64,000 nt of DNA from Nitrospinaceae bacterium (lineage in GTDB: Bacteria > Nitrospinota > Nitrospinia > Nitrospinales > Nitrospinaceae), in assembly GCA_028278405.1 (NCBI GenBank), contig JANQEK010000022.1:62001-126000 (forward strand), given 5' to 3'. The number at the start of each line of letters is the position of its first letter. Position 1 is the first letter of the stretch. Under the pieces are notes generated by a model. That model was not told where the DNA came from. It was given only the letters and a program-made list of their open reading frames with translations, and did no database searches. This document shows, piece by piece, positions 36,394 to 42,636 of the stretch. The position numbers and the translations under genes were made by a program.

Positions 36394-37815
36394 TTAAAAT
36401 CTGTATTCCAATCCGATAGTCCCACCGTGTCTGTAAGATCTCAACCGGTTGAGAATTGCCTGGCCCGAGCTGCCGTCCGAGCGAAAAAATAAAGTCCGGG
36501 AATCCTTCACCTCCAGTTGCCAAAAACGATAGCTTGCCTTCAGATAAAGGCCTGGAAGAAATATATTGTATCTCAGAGTTCCTTCGAGGTTGTATCCCTC
36601 ACCTCTCCCGGTATGTTCTATGGAGGGCGATTGAGCCAGGTCCGCCCTGAGATGGTGAATATCCTCATCGATCGCATAGGTCAGCGGAATAAAAGCCGCA
36701 TCCAGTTCCAAATCCAGCTTGTTGGTGATTTGGAACAAGGCGTTGAGTCCCAGGCGGATGGAATGCCATTGGACGGTGTTGGTAATCACACGCTGTCCCG
36801 TAAACGCAACCGTTCCCGGCGACAAGCAAAACATGGCACTGGTGCACTCCAATTGTGTAAATCCTTTCCCCACATTTTCTTCCGTCCAATACTGGTAGCC
36901 GAAATAAGCTCCAAGCTTCACATGTGCGGATTGATAAAAGTAACCTCCCAGATCAAGCTGACCATAAAGTATTTCATCAAGGTCCACATCGGAAAGCGTA
37001 CGCGAAATCCGATGCGGTCCAGCCACAGAGGTTGCGAAAAACGTGGCCCCTACCGTGCTGACAAAATCATCATCGATTAATTCTCCGGAACCTGCACCAT
37101 AACCCGCCAGCAACCGGGCAAACCAGTGCCCCCCCCAATCCACTTTTGATTGAAATTCTCCCGTAAACCCCAGCAAGTCCTGGTATATGAGTTCCGAAGT
37201 GGGATCGCCGAAAAGGATACCTCTAGAGGTATGATTCCAATCGGTCTGCCCGGTACTGACCCATGTGGAAATCGAGTGGGTCCATTTGGGAGACCGGGAA
37301 TCATTTTTTTCAATGATACTCGTGTTTTCTTTTGAAGCGGTCGACCCGACTTCAGAAGTCGGGAGCGTGATGTCTATCTTCCTTGAACCCTCAGGTGTGA
37401 AAATATACATTTGGCGAGAGCGGGAAGCGTTTTCCTTTATAGCACTCGGTTTATTTTCCGATACGGTCAGGTCAGTCTCGGAGGTTGGGGGCGTGATGTC
37501 TACCTTCTTTGGGCTCTCTTCGGGCAGAAAAACATACATTTCCAATGTTTGATTCTCGAACGCGGCAACATCCGTCTCTCCAATTCCGGGGGAAGGAATC
37601 AAAACTTCAAACGATTCAACGCGGGTGGATTGCGTGATGGTTTGGGCATAACTCAAGTGAACCGGAACCACGTAGATTGCCAGAAGGGAAACTGTGAAAA
37701 TCAGATGGGGATTGCGGTCTTTTTTATTTTCAGTGGTATAGCTTCCTTTGCAAAGCAAAGGCCACAAGCAAACTGTCGCTATGATGAGGACAAAAACCCC
37801 AATGACTGGATACAT
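36394..37815 (-). CDS. Outer-membrane beta-barrel protein with duplicated linker
   Basis: A 473-aa exported protein. A first hydrophobic segment (about 5-25) and a second (about 40-58, ending AQT) suggest a signal or anchor and a true signal peptide, so the start may be further downstream (about residue 38). A low-complexity stretch then holds two similar units of about 42 residues (YVFLPEESPKKVDITPPTSE and YIFTPEGSRKIDITLPTSE). From about 185 on, the pattern is a barrel (SISTWVSTGQTDWN, FARLLAGYGAGSGE, GLEYRF end) reminiscent of omptin-type proteins. I do not claim a protease, because no active-site set is confirmed. Function unknown. Confidence 0.65.
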   Translation of the reverse strand: MYPVIGVFVLIIATVCLWPLLCKGSYTTENKKDRNPHLIFTVSLLAIYVVPVHLSYAQTITQSTRVESFEVLIPSPGIGETDVAAFENQTLEMYVFLPEESPKKVDITPPTSETDLTVSENKPSAIKENASRSRQMYIFTPEGSRKIDITLPTSEVGSTASKENTSIIEKNDSRSPKWTHSISTWVSTGQTDWNHTSRGILFGDPTSELIYQDLLGFTGEFQSKVDWGGHWFARLLAGYGAGSGELIDDDFVSTVGATFFATSVAGPHRISRTLSDVDLDEILYGQLDLGGYFYQSAHVKLGAYFGYQYWTEENVGKGFTQLECTSAMFCLSPGTVAFTGQRVITNTVQWHSIRLGLNALFQITNKLDLELDAAFIPLTYAIDEDIHHLRADLAQSPSIEHTGRGEGYNLEGTLRYNIFLPGLYLKASYRFWQLEVKDSRTLFFRSDGSSGQAILNRLRSYRHGGTIGLEYRF

Positions 37816-38213
37816 AAGTTCACCTGATATGAACCTACGTATTTGCCCTCCAAATCAGGTAGGTTATCTTTTTCCAAGAGAAATAACTTTTTAATACATC
37901 AATCTTTATAAATCAATTTAAATTTTATCTTTTAAGTCAGGCATTAAAAATCATGAATATCACCACAATTAGATTAAGCGACCTAGCGAAACAATTTTCA
38001 GAAGCTTGTTGCTTACTGTGATCTCGTCCGTTAAAGCATCTATTCTCAAAAATACAAAGAGTTGCTAATTTTGTGAACTCTTTATATTTCTCCGGAGGCC
38101 GCTGGAATTCATGACTCGATTTTAGCGAGGCAATATTCTATTTGACAACTTTTGGATATTATTCTAAAAATGAGAATAATAATCAATATCAAAATAAGCT
38201 TCGGAGGAACAAA
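37816..38213. other. Intergenic region with a Fur-box-like site
   Basis: About 400 bases of AT-rich DNA separate the divergent barrel gene from the multicopper oxidase gene. Only the Fur-like box (38171-38185) and the AGGAGG-like ribosome site before 38214 stand out. No ORF of note. Confidence 0.5.
38171..38185. promoter_or_regulatory. Putative iron Fur box upstream of the multicopper oxidase
   Basis: TGAGAAT-A-ATAATCA agrees with TGATAAT-N-ATTATCA at 12 of 14 paired positions. It lies about 30 bases before the oxidase ATG, so it would cover the promoter or leader. It is probable but unproven. Confidence 0.45.
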
Positions 38214-39314
38214 ATGAGGTATTTGGGCAGAAAAAGCATGGAGAAAGTCACTATATGCCTTGGTGTCATGTCGATCATTCTTGGTATGACCGTCAATTCC
38301 CAAGCAGCCAAACGGGAGTACTGGATCGCTGCCAATCAGGTCGAATGGGATTACGCCCCCTCGTTTCCCATGAATCGTATGAGCGGGAAAAAATTCACGT
38401 CGGATCAGAAGATATTCGTGGAACAAGGGATCGGGCGCATCTACAAAAAGTCGATTTATCAGGAATATACCAACGCCAAATTCAATACGATCGTTCCCAG
38501 AGGCCCCAAGGACAAGCATCTGGGAATTCTGGGACCGATTATCCGTGCCGCTGTGGGTGACAGGATTGTTGTCCATTTCAGAAACAACACGCCCTTCCCT
38601 GCAAGCATTCACCCGCACGGAGTCTTTTACGATAAACGCAACGAAGGTGCAGCCTATGCCGACGGAACCACGGACAAAAAGGATGATGCGGTGCCCTCAG
38701 GCGGGGAATACACTTACCAATGGAATGTGCCGGAACGCGCAGGACCAGGACCGAAGGATCCGAGTTCTATTATATGGTTTTACCATTCCCACGTGGATAC
38801 ACCCGCAGACACGAATGCTGGTTTGATTGGACCCATCATCATAACCAGGAAAAATATGGCCAGTAGCGACGGCAGTCCCAAAGACGTCGACCGTGAATTT
38901 GTAACGCTCTTTAACGTGTTTGACGAAAATGCCAGTCTGTATCTGGATGCCAACCTGAAAAAGTGTCATCCCGCCTGTGATCCGGCTGATCCTGATATTG
39001 AGGAAGGTAATTTAATGCACGGTATGAATGGTCTGCTATGGGGTAATAATGTGGGCTACGACACAAAAAAAGGGGAGCGGATACGTTGGTACATCATCGG
39101 CATGGGCACTGAAGTCGATTTGCACACGCCACACTGGCATGGCGCAACCTTGCTGCACAACGGTCATCGGCTGGATGTTGCGGAAATCCTGCCGGCTGCA
39201 AGCAAAACATTCGACATGCAACCGGATGTGCAAGGCTCATGGATGTATCACTGCCATGTCAATGACCATCTCAGTGCGGGCATGATGACGGTCTTCGAGG
39301 TTAACGATCAATAG
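38214..39314 (+). CDS. Two-domain multicopper oxidase (ceruloplasmin-like)
   Basis: A 366-aa exported protein with a signal peptide (cleavage near NSQAA, about residue 31). It has two cupredoxin domains. The copper ligands are SIHPHGVF and FYHSHVD in the first, and HTPHWHG and MYHCHVNDHLSAGM in the second, so the type 1 (Cys, Met) and trinuclear sites look intact. The first domain text (KRNEGAAYADGT, VPSGGEYTYQW) resembles ceruloplasmin-type oxidases that oxidise ferrous iron or other metals in the periplasm. A strong AGGAG site precedes ATG 38214. Adjacent iron-linked genes and a Fur-like box support a ferroxidase role, which is inference. Confidence 0.88.
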   Translation: MRYLGRKSMEKVTICLGVMSIILGMTVNSQAAKREYWIAANQVEWDYAPSFPMNRMSGKKFTSDQKIFVEQGIGRIYKKSIYQEYTNAKFNTIVPRGPKDKHLGILGPIIRAAVGDRIVVHFRNNTPFPASIHPHGVFYDKRNEGAAYADGTTDKKDDAVPSGGEYTYQWNVPERAGPGPKDPSSIIWFYHSHVDTPADTNAGLIGPIIITRKNMASSDGSPKDVDREFVTLFNVFDENASLYLDANLKKCHPACDPADPDIEEGNLMHGMNGLLWGNNVGYDTKKGERIRWYIIGMGTEVDLHTPHWHGATLLHNGHRLDVAEILPAASKTFDMQPDVQGSWMYHCHVNDHLSAGMMTVFEVNDQ

Positions 39315-39451: not shown

Positions 39452-41107
39452 TCATCGACCCTGTACCTTAAATCCGTTTTGTACTGAATTTTCTATACCC
39501 TGTTCCAGCCAACGGGTCAGGTTTGGATGCGGGGCCAAACCTTTACGGCTCATTTCATAGGTGAGACCTTCAAAGAACTCATCGTAGCGGCCGCTCCCGT
39601 AAAGCCGGTTGGAGATGATCAGGGTACGTCCGGTTTTACTGCCTTCCTGAATAAGAGTGCGTATGCTTTTAAGAGCCTGCTTTCTTTTATCCGGCCAGTC
39701 TTCCCGCACCGTCAGTCCCCGAATATCCTTAAAAGGAATTTTGGAATTATTTTGAATATAATCTGCATGCTTTTTCATAACAGTCTTCCACTCGGCGTCC
39801 TTTCTGTCGTCGCGCGCTCCGTGGGCGATAAGCAGCACACGTTCCTGCGAAGGATCCTGGCTCAAAGCCATCACGCGTTCCTGTAGAATTTCGCAGATCA
39901 ATGCATCCTCTTCATATCCGCCAAAAGTGGTGAATATCGCTCCCGAACGCACTTGCGGAGGGGGTTGCAAACCCGGTCTTTGTCGTGGAGGTTTGGAGGT
40001 AAGCCCGAGAATATAATCGACCTTATCCTTGAATTGGTTCGCAAGGGAGTACATACGAACGATTACAATTTTTCGAATGCCGTCTCCCTCCAGTGTCTTG
40101 ATGGCGTCCTGAAGAGTCAGGGCATCGGCCATACCGTAGGCCATCTCAACACGGTATTTCTGCTTGAGCGGTTTGATTACCTGTTCTACCGCATCGTTAT
40201 AAGGTTTCTGGGCTCCGTGAGGCATGATGACCACACCCACCTGCTGTGGTGTGACATCAGCATAGCGGTTGGCAATCTTCTTTAACCAAAGTAACACATT
40301 AGGGTGGGGCAGTATTTCTTCGGAGACAATGGTTAAATCGTATTCTTCAAATTTTCTCGTCAACCAGTGCGTCAAAGACATGCGATGCGAATATTTGGGT
40401 CCCAAAGCAAATGGGATCAATAGGGTATTACCCTTTTTGGCAGCAAATTCAATAATACGTTGATCAGCTTCCTTATTTTTCTTCTTACGAAGTTTTTCCT
40501 CTGCTCCATAGTTGTAATACAACACCACTTCAGCATCACGAAACGGCAAGCGGTCGACGGCATATTTCATAATGGATTGCAATTCCGAGCCAATCGCTTG
40601 TTCCGAGGCCTCGTCCATGGGCCCCATAGCGAGCAGGATCAGATGCTCGCTTTTTGGATCGCGGCTCAGTTCCTGAACGCGGTCAAAAAATATCTGCGCT
40701 GTCAGGTAACTTGTCGCCATAGGCCCTGCCCACCGCAGCGCAGGTTTGTATCCCTGCCTGGCCTCAATGATTCCCCTCGCCGTGTTCAGGGCCGGGTTGG
40801 CTCCGGTCAGAAAAAGAGGAATAACAACCACCTGGTCGACATTCATTTTTTCCAAATGGTCCATCGCCTCCTGGATATATGGGGCGTAGTCGCGGTCAGG
40901 CCCTCCATAGCCGCGACCCACATAGGCGAGAGCCCCTGTGTAATGTTTCGAGAATTCGAAAAACAAGGCCTCCATTTCGCGGTTACCCAAAAATCCCCGA
41001 TCCGGTGCCAGTATCAGGAATCCGGTTTTCACTGGAGATTTTGCCAGAATGGAAGCCGGCCAAAATGACAGATTGATCAGCAAAATCCAAAGGATGATTT
41101 TTTTCAT
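39452..41107 (-). CDS. Exported multi-domain CbiX/SirB-like chelatase-family protein
   Basis: A 551-aa protein with a signal peptide (MKKIILWILLINLSFW, cleavage near ILAKS). Four similar chelatase half-domains follow. Domain one opens LILAPDRGFLG and domain two LILLAMGPMDEAS, both without the usual HGS His. Domain three (VVIMPHGAQKPYND) and domain four (VLLIAHGARDDRKDAEW) keep the His-Gly motif. Two pairs therefore make two CbiX-like units, of which only the C-terminal one has the expected metal-site His. ATG at 41107 is chosen because an AGGAGG site lies just before it. Cobalt/iron chelatases normally work in the cytosol, so an exported one is unusual. Role unknown. Confidence 0.82.
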   Translation of the reverse strand: MKKIILWILLINLSFWPASILAKSPVKTGFLILAPDRGFLGNREMEALFFEFSKHYTGALAYVGRGYGGPDRDYAPYIQEAMDHLEKMNVDQVVVIPLFLTGANPALNTARGIIEARQGYKPALRWAGPMATSYLTAQIFFDRVQELSRDPKSEHLILLAMGPMDEASEQAIGSELQSIMKYAVDRLPFRDAEVVLYYNYGAEEKLRKKKNKEADQRIIEFAAKKGNTLLIPFALGPKYSHRMSLTHWLTRKFEEYDLTIVSEEILPHPNVLLWLKKIANRYADVTPQQVGVVIMPHGAQKPYNDAVEQVIKPLKQKYRVEMAYGMADALTLQDAIKTLEGDGIRKIVIVRMYSLANQFKDKVDYILGLTSKPPRQRPGLQPPPQVRSGAIFTTFGGYEEDALICEILQERVMALSQDPSQERVLLIAHGARDDRKDAEWKTVMKKHADYIQNNSKIPFKDIRGLTVREDWPDKRKQALKSIRTLIQEGSKTGRTLIISNRLYGSGRYDEFFEGLTYEMSRKGLAPHPNLTRWLEQGIENSVQNGFKVQGR

Positions 41108-41169
41108 GGAAAATCCTCCTGAAAACACAGTAGAAATGAAATGCGCGCGGGTCGCTGCTTTAAGGGAGC

Positions 41170-41206
41170 GGGCAAACGGAAGGAACACCACACCTTCCGT
41201 TTGCCC
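41170..41206. other. Perfect 14-bp hairpin upstream of the chelatase gene
   Basis: GGGCAAACGGAAGG and CCTTCCGTTTGCCC pair perfectly around a 9-base loop. No T-run follows in either direction. It lies in the 190-base gap between the DUF2325 and chelatase-like genes, which share a strand, and may be a processing, attenuation or regulatory structure. Confidence 0.6.
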
Positions 41207-41298: not shown

Positions 41299-41583
41299 TC
41301 AGGCGGGAACGAAAGAGTCCAGACACTTTTTCAAGCCCGAAACGCTGCTGGCATGGGTCCGACCGACCGGAATGTTGCAGCGTTTCGCCACACGCATCGC
41401 CTCTCTCACCATGGGATGAGAGATCGTATCTGTAAACAAAACGATTCCGTGGACTCCACTGAGTCTCTTTTGCATATCCGGAACCCTCTGAGAAAATAAT
41501 TTCACTTTGAAACCCAGTTCCTTTCCGGTTTTCTCATAATTGCGCTTCAACCGATCCAGACCACCTAAAATTGCGATACTCAT
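41299..41583 (-). CDS. DUF2325-family small protein
   Basis: A 94-aa cytoplasmic protein reading SIAILGGLDRLKRNYEK, VHGIVLFTDTISHPMVREAM and IPVGRTHASSVSGLKKCL. This is the DUF2325 pattern, a Rossmann-like fold with unknown biochemistry. The Cys in AKRCNIP and the final KKC may be redox- or metal-linked. A clear AAAGGAG site precedes the ATG. It probably shares a transcript with the exported chelatase-like gene downstream. Confidence 0.82.
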   Translation of the reverse strand: MSIAILGGLDRLKRNYEKTGKELGFKVKLFSQRVPDMQKRLSGVHGIVLFTDTISHPMVREAMRVAKRCNIPVGRTHASSVSGLKKCLDSFVPA

Positions 41584-41766: not shown

Positions 41767-42081
41767 CTACTTCATTTCAACGGGATGGCATCTGCCAACA
41801 AAACCTCCACCCTTGTGGGAAGGGTCATGCTGGGCTAATACCTCTAAAGCCTCCTCAGGTTCCCGCCATTTGAGGAGTTCCCCAGAAGGTGACATTTTAA
41901 CTGAAACCCCGCCGCTGCACTTTTTCATGCAAGGCACCGGGCAGACCTGAATATTTCCCGTGCCGGGAAACCTTCCAATCGCTTTCCAGAGCAAAAATAT
42001 CACCTTGCCCGATTGCCAGGATTTGCAACCCGGTCCAGTACAAACCTTAATTCTCTTGATGGGATTGGAAAAATAATTCAT
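41767..42081 (-). CDS. Thioredoxin-like 2Fe-2S ferredoxin domain protein
   Basis: A 104-aa cytoplasmic protein with IKVCTGPGCKSWQSGK and CPVPCMKKCSGGVSVK. The spacing of the Cys residues is that of thioredoxin-fold 2Fe-2S ferredoxins (NuoE-like). A basic C-terminal tail with GGGFVGRCHP follows. No Shine-Dalgarno is obvious. It is divergent from fur, and a Fur-box-like site lies in the 100-base gap, so it is probably iron-regulated. Confidence 0.8.
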   Translation of the reverse strand: MNYFSNPIKRIKVCTGPGCKSWQSGKVIFLLWKAIGRFPGTGNIQVCPVPCMKKCSGGVSVKMSPSGELLKWREPEEALEVLAQHDPSHKGGGFVGRCHPVEMK

Positions 42082-42101
42082 GGAATTTGACTATTTGAGA
42101 T

Positions 42102-42116
42102 TGATAATCATTTTCA
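42102..42116. promoter_or_regulatory. Putative Fur box between ferredoxin and fur genes
   Basis: TGATAAT-C-ATTTTCA differs from the classic TGATAAT-N-ATTATCA at one position. It lies in the divergent promoter region, so it could regulate both genes, including fur itself. Confidence 0.7.
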
Positions 42117-42180: not shown

Positions 42181-42636
42181 ATGACCACAAATCACAACAA
42201 TCATGATGAAGCAGATAATGAATTAAATATCCTTAAGAGTTTTCTGACGGAAAAGAGGCTGCGGCTGACTCAGCCCCGGAAAGCCATTTTAGAGGTCTTT
42301 CTGAAAAACAGAGGTCACATGGAAATCGGGGAGCTGTACGAGGCGGTGCAAAAGGTGGACAAAAGTATTGGCATGGCCACCGTCTATCGGACTATGAATT
42401 TATTGGTCCAATGTGGATTAGCCGAAGAGAACAGCCTTTTCGAAAATAAGAAGTGCTTTGAAAGGGCTCACGGTCGAACGCATCACGACCACCTGGTGTG
42501 TACCCGATGCAAAAGCGTCAAGGAATTTCATCACCCGATGATCGAGCGCTTTCAGGAAGAAACCGCTGAAAAGTATCAGTTCTCTATTGTTTTCCACCGT
42601 ATGACCTTGTTCGGTGTTTGCAAGGATTGCAAATAA
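42181..42636 (+). CDS. fur: Ferric uptake regulator, iron type
   Basis: A 151-aa Fur-family repressor. It has the winged-helix motif LTQPRKAILEVFL, the recognition helix MATVYRTMNLL, the metal-site run HGRTHHDHLVCTRC and the C-terminal CKDCK pair. It is diverged from the two probable Zur paralogues near 10.3 kb. The HHDHLVC block and the adjacent Fur box fit iron sensing. It lies in the divergent pair with the 2Fe-2S ferredoxin gene. The N-terminal 20 residues are a flexible His/Asn/Asp-rich tail. The start at 42181 has no obvious ribosome site. Confidence 0.87.
   Translation: MTTNHNNHDEADNELNILKSFLTEKRLRLTQPRKAILEVFLKNRGHMEIGELYEAVQKVDKSIGMATVYRTMNLLVQCGLAEENSLFENKKCFERAHGRTHHDHLVCTRCKSVKEFHHPMIERFQEETAEKYQFSIVFHRMTLFGVCKDCK

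Follow-up and report, generated by a model that had tools for sequence, protein, structure and literature searches.

An exported tandem CbiX protein with a probable role in periplasmic heme handling

The window, a stretch of 64,000 nucleotides of Nitrospinaceae DNA, encodes a CbiX-like protein of 551 aa (39452..41107, reverse strand) that appears to be exported. Why would a member of a chelatase family leave the cytosol, and what would it do there? We refer to this exported tandem CbiX protein as CbiX4 and describe it on the basis of its ORF, an alignment of homologues, an AlphaFold2 model and Foldseek comparisons.

Export and architecture of CbiX4

The start codon of CbiX4 is the ATG at 41107, with a ribosome-binding site AGGAGG (41115..41120, reverse strand) 8 nt upstream. 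The N-terminus, MKKIILWILLINLSFWPASILA followed by KS, shows the n-, h- and c-regions of a Sec signal, and a signal peptide is predicted from the sequence and a simple-rule scan for residues 1-22 (41042..41107, reverse strand), with cleavage between ILA and KS. Signal peptides were judged throughout by one simple in-house rule, not by SignalP. By this rule, 36 of the 41 full-length homologues carry a signal peptide, and at least three of the five signal-less ones are explained by a late (L007), cut (L024) or misplaced (L121) start. The signal sequences vary among homologues across phyla. The same genome also encodes two ordinary cytosolic CbiX proteins of ~180 aa with HGG and GGSHSE.EIP motifs, neither of which has a signal peptide by the same rule. 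These predictions support export across the whole family, as had been proposed for the window copy. The accompanying premise that chelatases act in the cytosol is contradicted by CbiK(P) and IhtB/FetB, which are exported proteins with a class II chelatase fold.

The Pfam CbiX family (PF01903) matches CbiX4 in two stretches with 32.8 bits against a cut-off of 22 (9e-8). The NCBIfam CfbA model matches at 2e-11, under its cut-off, and CbiK (PF06180) reaches 17.4 bits, short of its cut-off of 26.2. No CobN-like sequence was found in CbiX4, and its chelatase class differs from that of HmuS.

CbiX4 consists of four CbiX half-domains. Profile comparison of residues 26-285 with residues 286-545 gives a 99.5% match (E 5.8e-23), in which lobe 1 pairs with lobe 3 and lobe 2 with lobe 4; there is hardly any match between lobe 1 and lobe 2 or between lobe 3 and lobe 4. 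CbiX4 is thus the product of a tandem duplication of a complete class II chelatase with both its lobes. A separate four-lobe origin was rejected because the strong matches are confined to lobes 1-3 and 2-4. The two halves are lobe pair A (residues 26-285; 40253..41032, reverse strand) and lobe pair B (residues 286-545; 39473..40252, reverse strand).

The AlphaFold2 model, built with 9 aligned sequences, has a pLDDT of 86.4 and a pTM of 0.83. Its Foldseek matches are SirB, CbiK(P) (PDB 2xvx), FetB (PDB 9b86) and ferrochelatases, the best being SirB (TM 0.70 on SirB). The structure model that the original prediction had suggested as a check came out with a two-lobed class II chelatase fold.

Conserved residues of the two lobe pairs

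In CfbA, the metal ligands are His9, Glu42 and His75, and the tetrapyrrole sits between the His pairs of both subunits (PMC11301274). SirB and CfbA (5zt7, 6m25) provide the best fold match (SirB) and the best single-lobe sequence matches to CbiX4. Both are cytosolic and keep His9/Glu42/His75, whereas the positions aligned to these residues of M. jannaschii CfbA are His297, Met326 and Lys360 in CbiX4.

Conservation was counted over the 41 full-length homologues. At the HG(S/A) position, lobe 1 has D36-R37-G38, lobe 2 has G162, lobe 3 has H297-G298 and lobe 4 has H429-G430, which bears out the claim that pair A lacks this His and pair B keeps it. His297 (40217..40219, reverse strand), the aligned counterpart of His9, is present in 41/41 homologues, and His429 (39821..39823, reverse strand), at the matching position of lobe 4, in 40/40. 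M243, M326, D328 and R351 are as invariant as H297, and H268 is kept in 39/40. The equivalent of His75, the second metal-ligand His, is conserved in none of the four lobes across the 41 homologues; residue 360 is K or R in 38/41, and lobe 4 has lost this His while keeping H429. Since K360 occupies the His75 position of lobe 3 and no lobe has a conserved second His, pair B is not fully intact. Because the canonical His/Glu/His metal site is missing, chelatase chemistry is not assured for CbiX4.

Pair A carries the invariant motif DRGxxGN instead of the HG His. In CbiX4 it reads DRGFLGN (residues 36-42; 40982..41002, reverse strand), and D36, R37, G38, G41 and N42 are found in 41/41 homologues. 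Judged by this motif, pair A is conserved under selection rather than decaying. CbiX4 had been described as two degenerate and two intact half-domains; the four half-domains stand, while "degenerate" does not suit the constrained pair A, nor "intact" a pair B without its second His.

As the ring of CfbA lies between two His pairs, H297 and H429 should face a bound ring from both sides, an expectation that comes from this analogy rather than from measured coordinates.

Genomic distribution and neighbourhoods

CbiX4 is a sporadic exported family. Profile and protein searches detected it in 5/77 genomes from the phylum of the host, in 25/396 from Nitrospirota and in 7/369 from Gammaproteobacteria, where some members consist of pair B alone; the genome-wide scans of the window genome were likewise made as family searches. 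It also occurs on Ca. Manganitrophus plasmids, annotated there as hypothetical. The survey of exported CbiX proteins that had been called for thus found homologues across several phyla, most of them with a signal. In the tree, the window clade groups with Acidiferrobacterales-type Gammaproteobacteria (support 93/90) and the Manganitrophus proteins with other Gammaproteobacteria. This mixing of phyla fits horizontal transfer.

One Nitrospirota MAG has tandem duplicate CbiX4 genes as well as a third copy that a stop or frameshift interrupts (L016, 9884-14870; L021, 9878-11683). Lipoproteins that contain just lobe pair B were also seen (L019, 8948-10828; L125, 9363-10331), one of them in a Planctomycetota MAG, as were pair-B-like proteins bearing signals (L123, L124). 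These pair-B-only and pair-B-like exported proteins indicate that exported CbiX proteins extend beyond CbiX4.

In the window, the convergent neighbour of CbiX4 encodes an exported ceruloplasmin-like multicopper oxidase of 366 aa (38214..39314, forward strand). Its nearest solved relatives are ceruloplasmins (E ~1e-219), with two-domain laccases at 1e-14, and we regard this single-repeat bacterial protein as a candidate ferroxidase. Two overlapping 7-1-7 Fur-box-like sites with 2 mismatches each lie upstream of the oxidase (38171..38191, forward strand). A Fur-family regulator (42181..42636, forward strand) is likewise preceded by overlapping Fur-box-like sites, with 1 and 3 mismatches (42096..42116, forward strand). 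The original prediction had named both neighbours, and both are confirmed. The window contains 12 Fur-box-like sites against 3.8 expected; directly upstream of CbiX4, no Fur box was found. Oxidase genes near CbiX4 in two other loci (L014, L120) belong to other subfamilies than the ceruloplasmin-like one, so that the linkage is shared at the superfamily level only and was dismissed.

Between CbiX4 and Fur lie genes for a DUF2325 protein (41299-41583, reverse strand) and for a small protein that resembles ferredoxin and shows a CxxxxC..CxxxC pattern (41767-42081, reverse strand). A perfect 14-bp inverted repeat with a 9-nt loop and without a T run lies 63 nt ahead of the CbiX4 start codon (41170..41206); neither this repeat nor the rest of the CbiX4 vicinity gave an Rfam match. 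On the other side of the oxidase, a putative outer-membrane barrel protein with a weak omptin match is encoded (36394..37815, reverse strand), and a homologue of it lies two genes from CbiX4 in another genome (G011), in a different arrangement.

Among the 38 CbiX4 loci with known receptor counts, 27 have a TonB-dependent receptor within 5 kb (1.5 expected) and 12 have one within 500 bp (0.1 expected), always on the same strand as CbiX4. When close relatives are dropped, the linkage is 17/25 loci against 0.9 expected. In one genome of the host phylum (G074), the gap between receptor and CbiX4 is ~12 bp. Of the 24 linked receptors that could be typed, 19 fit heme models best, and six score above the curated cut-off (L010, 570 bits; L120, 466; L013, 444; L103, 433; L104, 423; L011, 389). 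A scan for the FRAP/NPNL receptor motif found the FRAP-His-NPDL heme motif with a clear His solely in L010. The other five receptors (L007, L100, L106, L117, L121) fit siderophore models best.

Genes for TonB_C, ExbB, PepSY, ferritin and HmuY proteins recur near CbiX4, and HmuY shares a cluster with the receptor and CbiX4 in L012, L097 and L098. The L021 locus, with genes for CbiX4, a lipoprotein, a receptor, an ExbB-like protein, DUF2149, NQR2/RnfD and ApbE, comes close to hmuYRSTUV, with CbiX4 in the slot of HmuS. Many Nitrospirota loci combine TonB, CbiX4, the receptor, a second exported CbiX, a PepSY_TM-like and a ferritin-like protein. In Nitrospira-like loci (L099, L102, L107, L109-L112, L115, L119), this second exported CbiX, of ~310 aa and with both chelatase His kept, is encoded directly downstream of the receptor.

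The mere presence of HmuY in a genome was rejected as evidence, because 69/77 genomes of this phylum encode HmuY domains, with or without CbiX4. The two HmuY loci of the window genome (L033, L034) have no receptor within the 20 kb read, which suggests another role there, away from receptors, for the near-universal HmuY of this phylum.

Proposed role and alternatives

Together, our results suggest that CbiX4 is probably the periplasmic tetrapyrrole- or heme-handling part of a TonB-dependent heme/iron uptake system. In relatives from several phyla, its gene lies beside receptors of the heme-importing type, so the protein probably holds heme outside the cytosol. We infer heme as the ligand and assume that the window copy acts like its relatives. 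The original proposal of a tetrapyrrole role outside the cytosol gains support from the linkage to heme-type receptors and HmuY in these relatives. Against this reading, the window copy and its closest relatives (L022, L023) have no TonB receptor nearby, five linked receptors are siderophore-typed, the canonical metal site is absent, and FeoB (PF07664), the Fe(II) importer of HmuS systems, is found in only 1/36 CbiX4 genomes.

We then propose a mechanistic model. Heme would cross the outer membrane and enter the cleft of lobe pair B, where H297 and H429 would approach opposite faces of the ring, like the two His9 residues of a CfbA dimer. The other pair, A, in which DRGxxGN is fixed, could have specialised in docking, in handing over the ligand or in binding the product. 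The iron might then be stripped in place by reverse chelation, as in HmuS, or be passed on with the heme. It is tempting to speculate that the ceruloplasmin-like neighbour, or a similar ferroxidase, might permit uptake as Fe(III) instead.

Three known systems bear on this model. A role in extracting iron from heme has been put forward for IhtB/FetB of P. gingivalis (PMC10913741), which is encoded beside the TonB receptor IhtA and combines export with a class II chelatase fold. It is, however, a CbiK-like lipoprotein with one lobe pair, whereas CbiX4 is CbiX-like with two and its family mostly lacks a lipobox; a sequence match between the two was not detected. In the CbiX4 family, 36/41 homologues have a signal and 27/38 loci a receptor within 5 kb; the window copy has the signal, with no receptor nearby. 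CbiK(P) of D. vulgaris is reported to be an exported, working cobaltochelatase and was later described as a heme-binding protein. It is a single lobe pair of the CbiK family whose His binds free metal; CbiX4 has two pairs and belongs to the CbiX family. HmuS (PMC12583661) is also exported and encoded in a heme-uptake locus with HmuY, HmuR and ExbB/DUF2149-type proteins, as in CbiX4 relatives. An hmuYR-like locus surrounds CbiX4 in L012, L021, L097 and L098, but not in the window. HmuS is a chelatase run backwards with His residues at both faces of the ring, which for CbiX4 is proposed only, and it is a membrane-bound, class I CobN-like protein of 1469 aa that differs from CbiX4 in fold and ligands.

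With the proposed function of IhtB/FetB and the export of CbiK(P), this kind of protein is already known. In the literature searched, which included few subscription papers, we found no published description of an exported CbiX next to TonB receptors, nor of a doubled CbiX protein, of its altered site or of its occurrence with heme-type receptors beyond Bacteroidota.

CbiX4 may strip iron from heme, and among class II chelatases it is possibly the equivalent of HmuS. The fully stated version, in which pair B of an active periplasmic de-chelatase removes Fe(II) and leaves the porphyrin, is tenable, and we give it a minority share of our confidence. In its favour are the place of CbiX4 in hmu-like loci that lack HmuS and a His on both faces of the ring, parallel to the HmuS His dyads; the reductase-like PepSY partners could supply electrons, and a ferroxidase-like oxidase could stand in for the FeoB route. 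The loss of the second His and the Glu of the chelatase site speaks against it, as does the lack of FeoB in 35/36 genomes. A canonical heme oxygenase (PF01126) was found in none of the 36 CbiX4 genomes by a search for this family alone, but PF01126 is missing in most bacteria and the count leaves out HugZ, IsdG and ChuW types. Similarly, none of the five CbiX4 genomes of the host phylum encodes CobN/HmuS, but 0/5 against 13/72 is too small a contrast for significance, and mutual exclusion was rejected.

We are somewhat doubtful of the broader reading that these undescribed, widespread exported double class II chelatases are periplasmic heme de-chelatases in three lineages (Nitrospirota, the host phylum and some Gammaproteobacteria), having convergently replaced HmuS with a new site of two opposed His9-type ligands and an evolved second lobe pair. 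At issue is how iron is released from imported heme in bacteria other than Bacteroidota that use no heme oxygenase. For this step, the CbiX4 family is a specific, exported candidate with defined partners (TonB receptor, HmuY, PepSY protein and second exported CbiX) in Nitrospira, a group whose uptake of heme iron seems to have received little study. Should CbiX4 de-chelate heme, this chemistry evolved twice, in chelatase classes that are unrelated; should it bind heme and no more, it would be a periplasmic heme carrier of a new type, descended from a chelatase.

It is unlikely that CbiX4 binds a ferric siderophore or Fe(III) in the manner of FhuD/BtuF, its chelatase fold being merely ancestral. 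The siderophore-type receptors of L117 and L106 exceed their cut-off, and FecI/FecR and PepSY are among the neighbours, but most linked receptors and HmuY indicate heme, and a siderophore ABC importer was not identified as a recurrent neighbour. Improbable, too, is an exported forward cobalto- or ferrochelatase of sirohydrochlorin or corrinoids, as proposed partly for CbiK(P). Membership of the CbiX family and the working cobaltochelatase CbiK(P) favour it, but the canonical metal ligands are lost, cobalamin genes do not recur beside CbiX4, and sirohydrochlorin is a cytosolic intermediate. That the signal peptide is unused and CbiX4 is a degenerate cytosolic CbiX is hardly credible: the signals were called by a simple rule rather than by experiment, but 36/41 homologues across phyla keep one although its sequence differs, and the genes are linked to those of envelope proteins.

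Four genomes of the host phylum (G027, G030, G034, G046) contain an HmuS/BtuS-like unit in a B12 locus (L044-L047), in which an exported CobN-like protein of 1446-1486 aa is encoded with ExbB- and DUF2149-like proteins between a receptor and cobalamin genes. Given this setting among cobalamin genes, these CobN-like proteins may serve B12.
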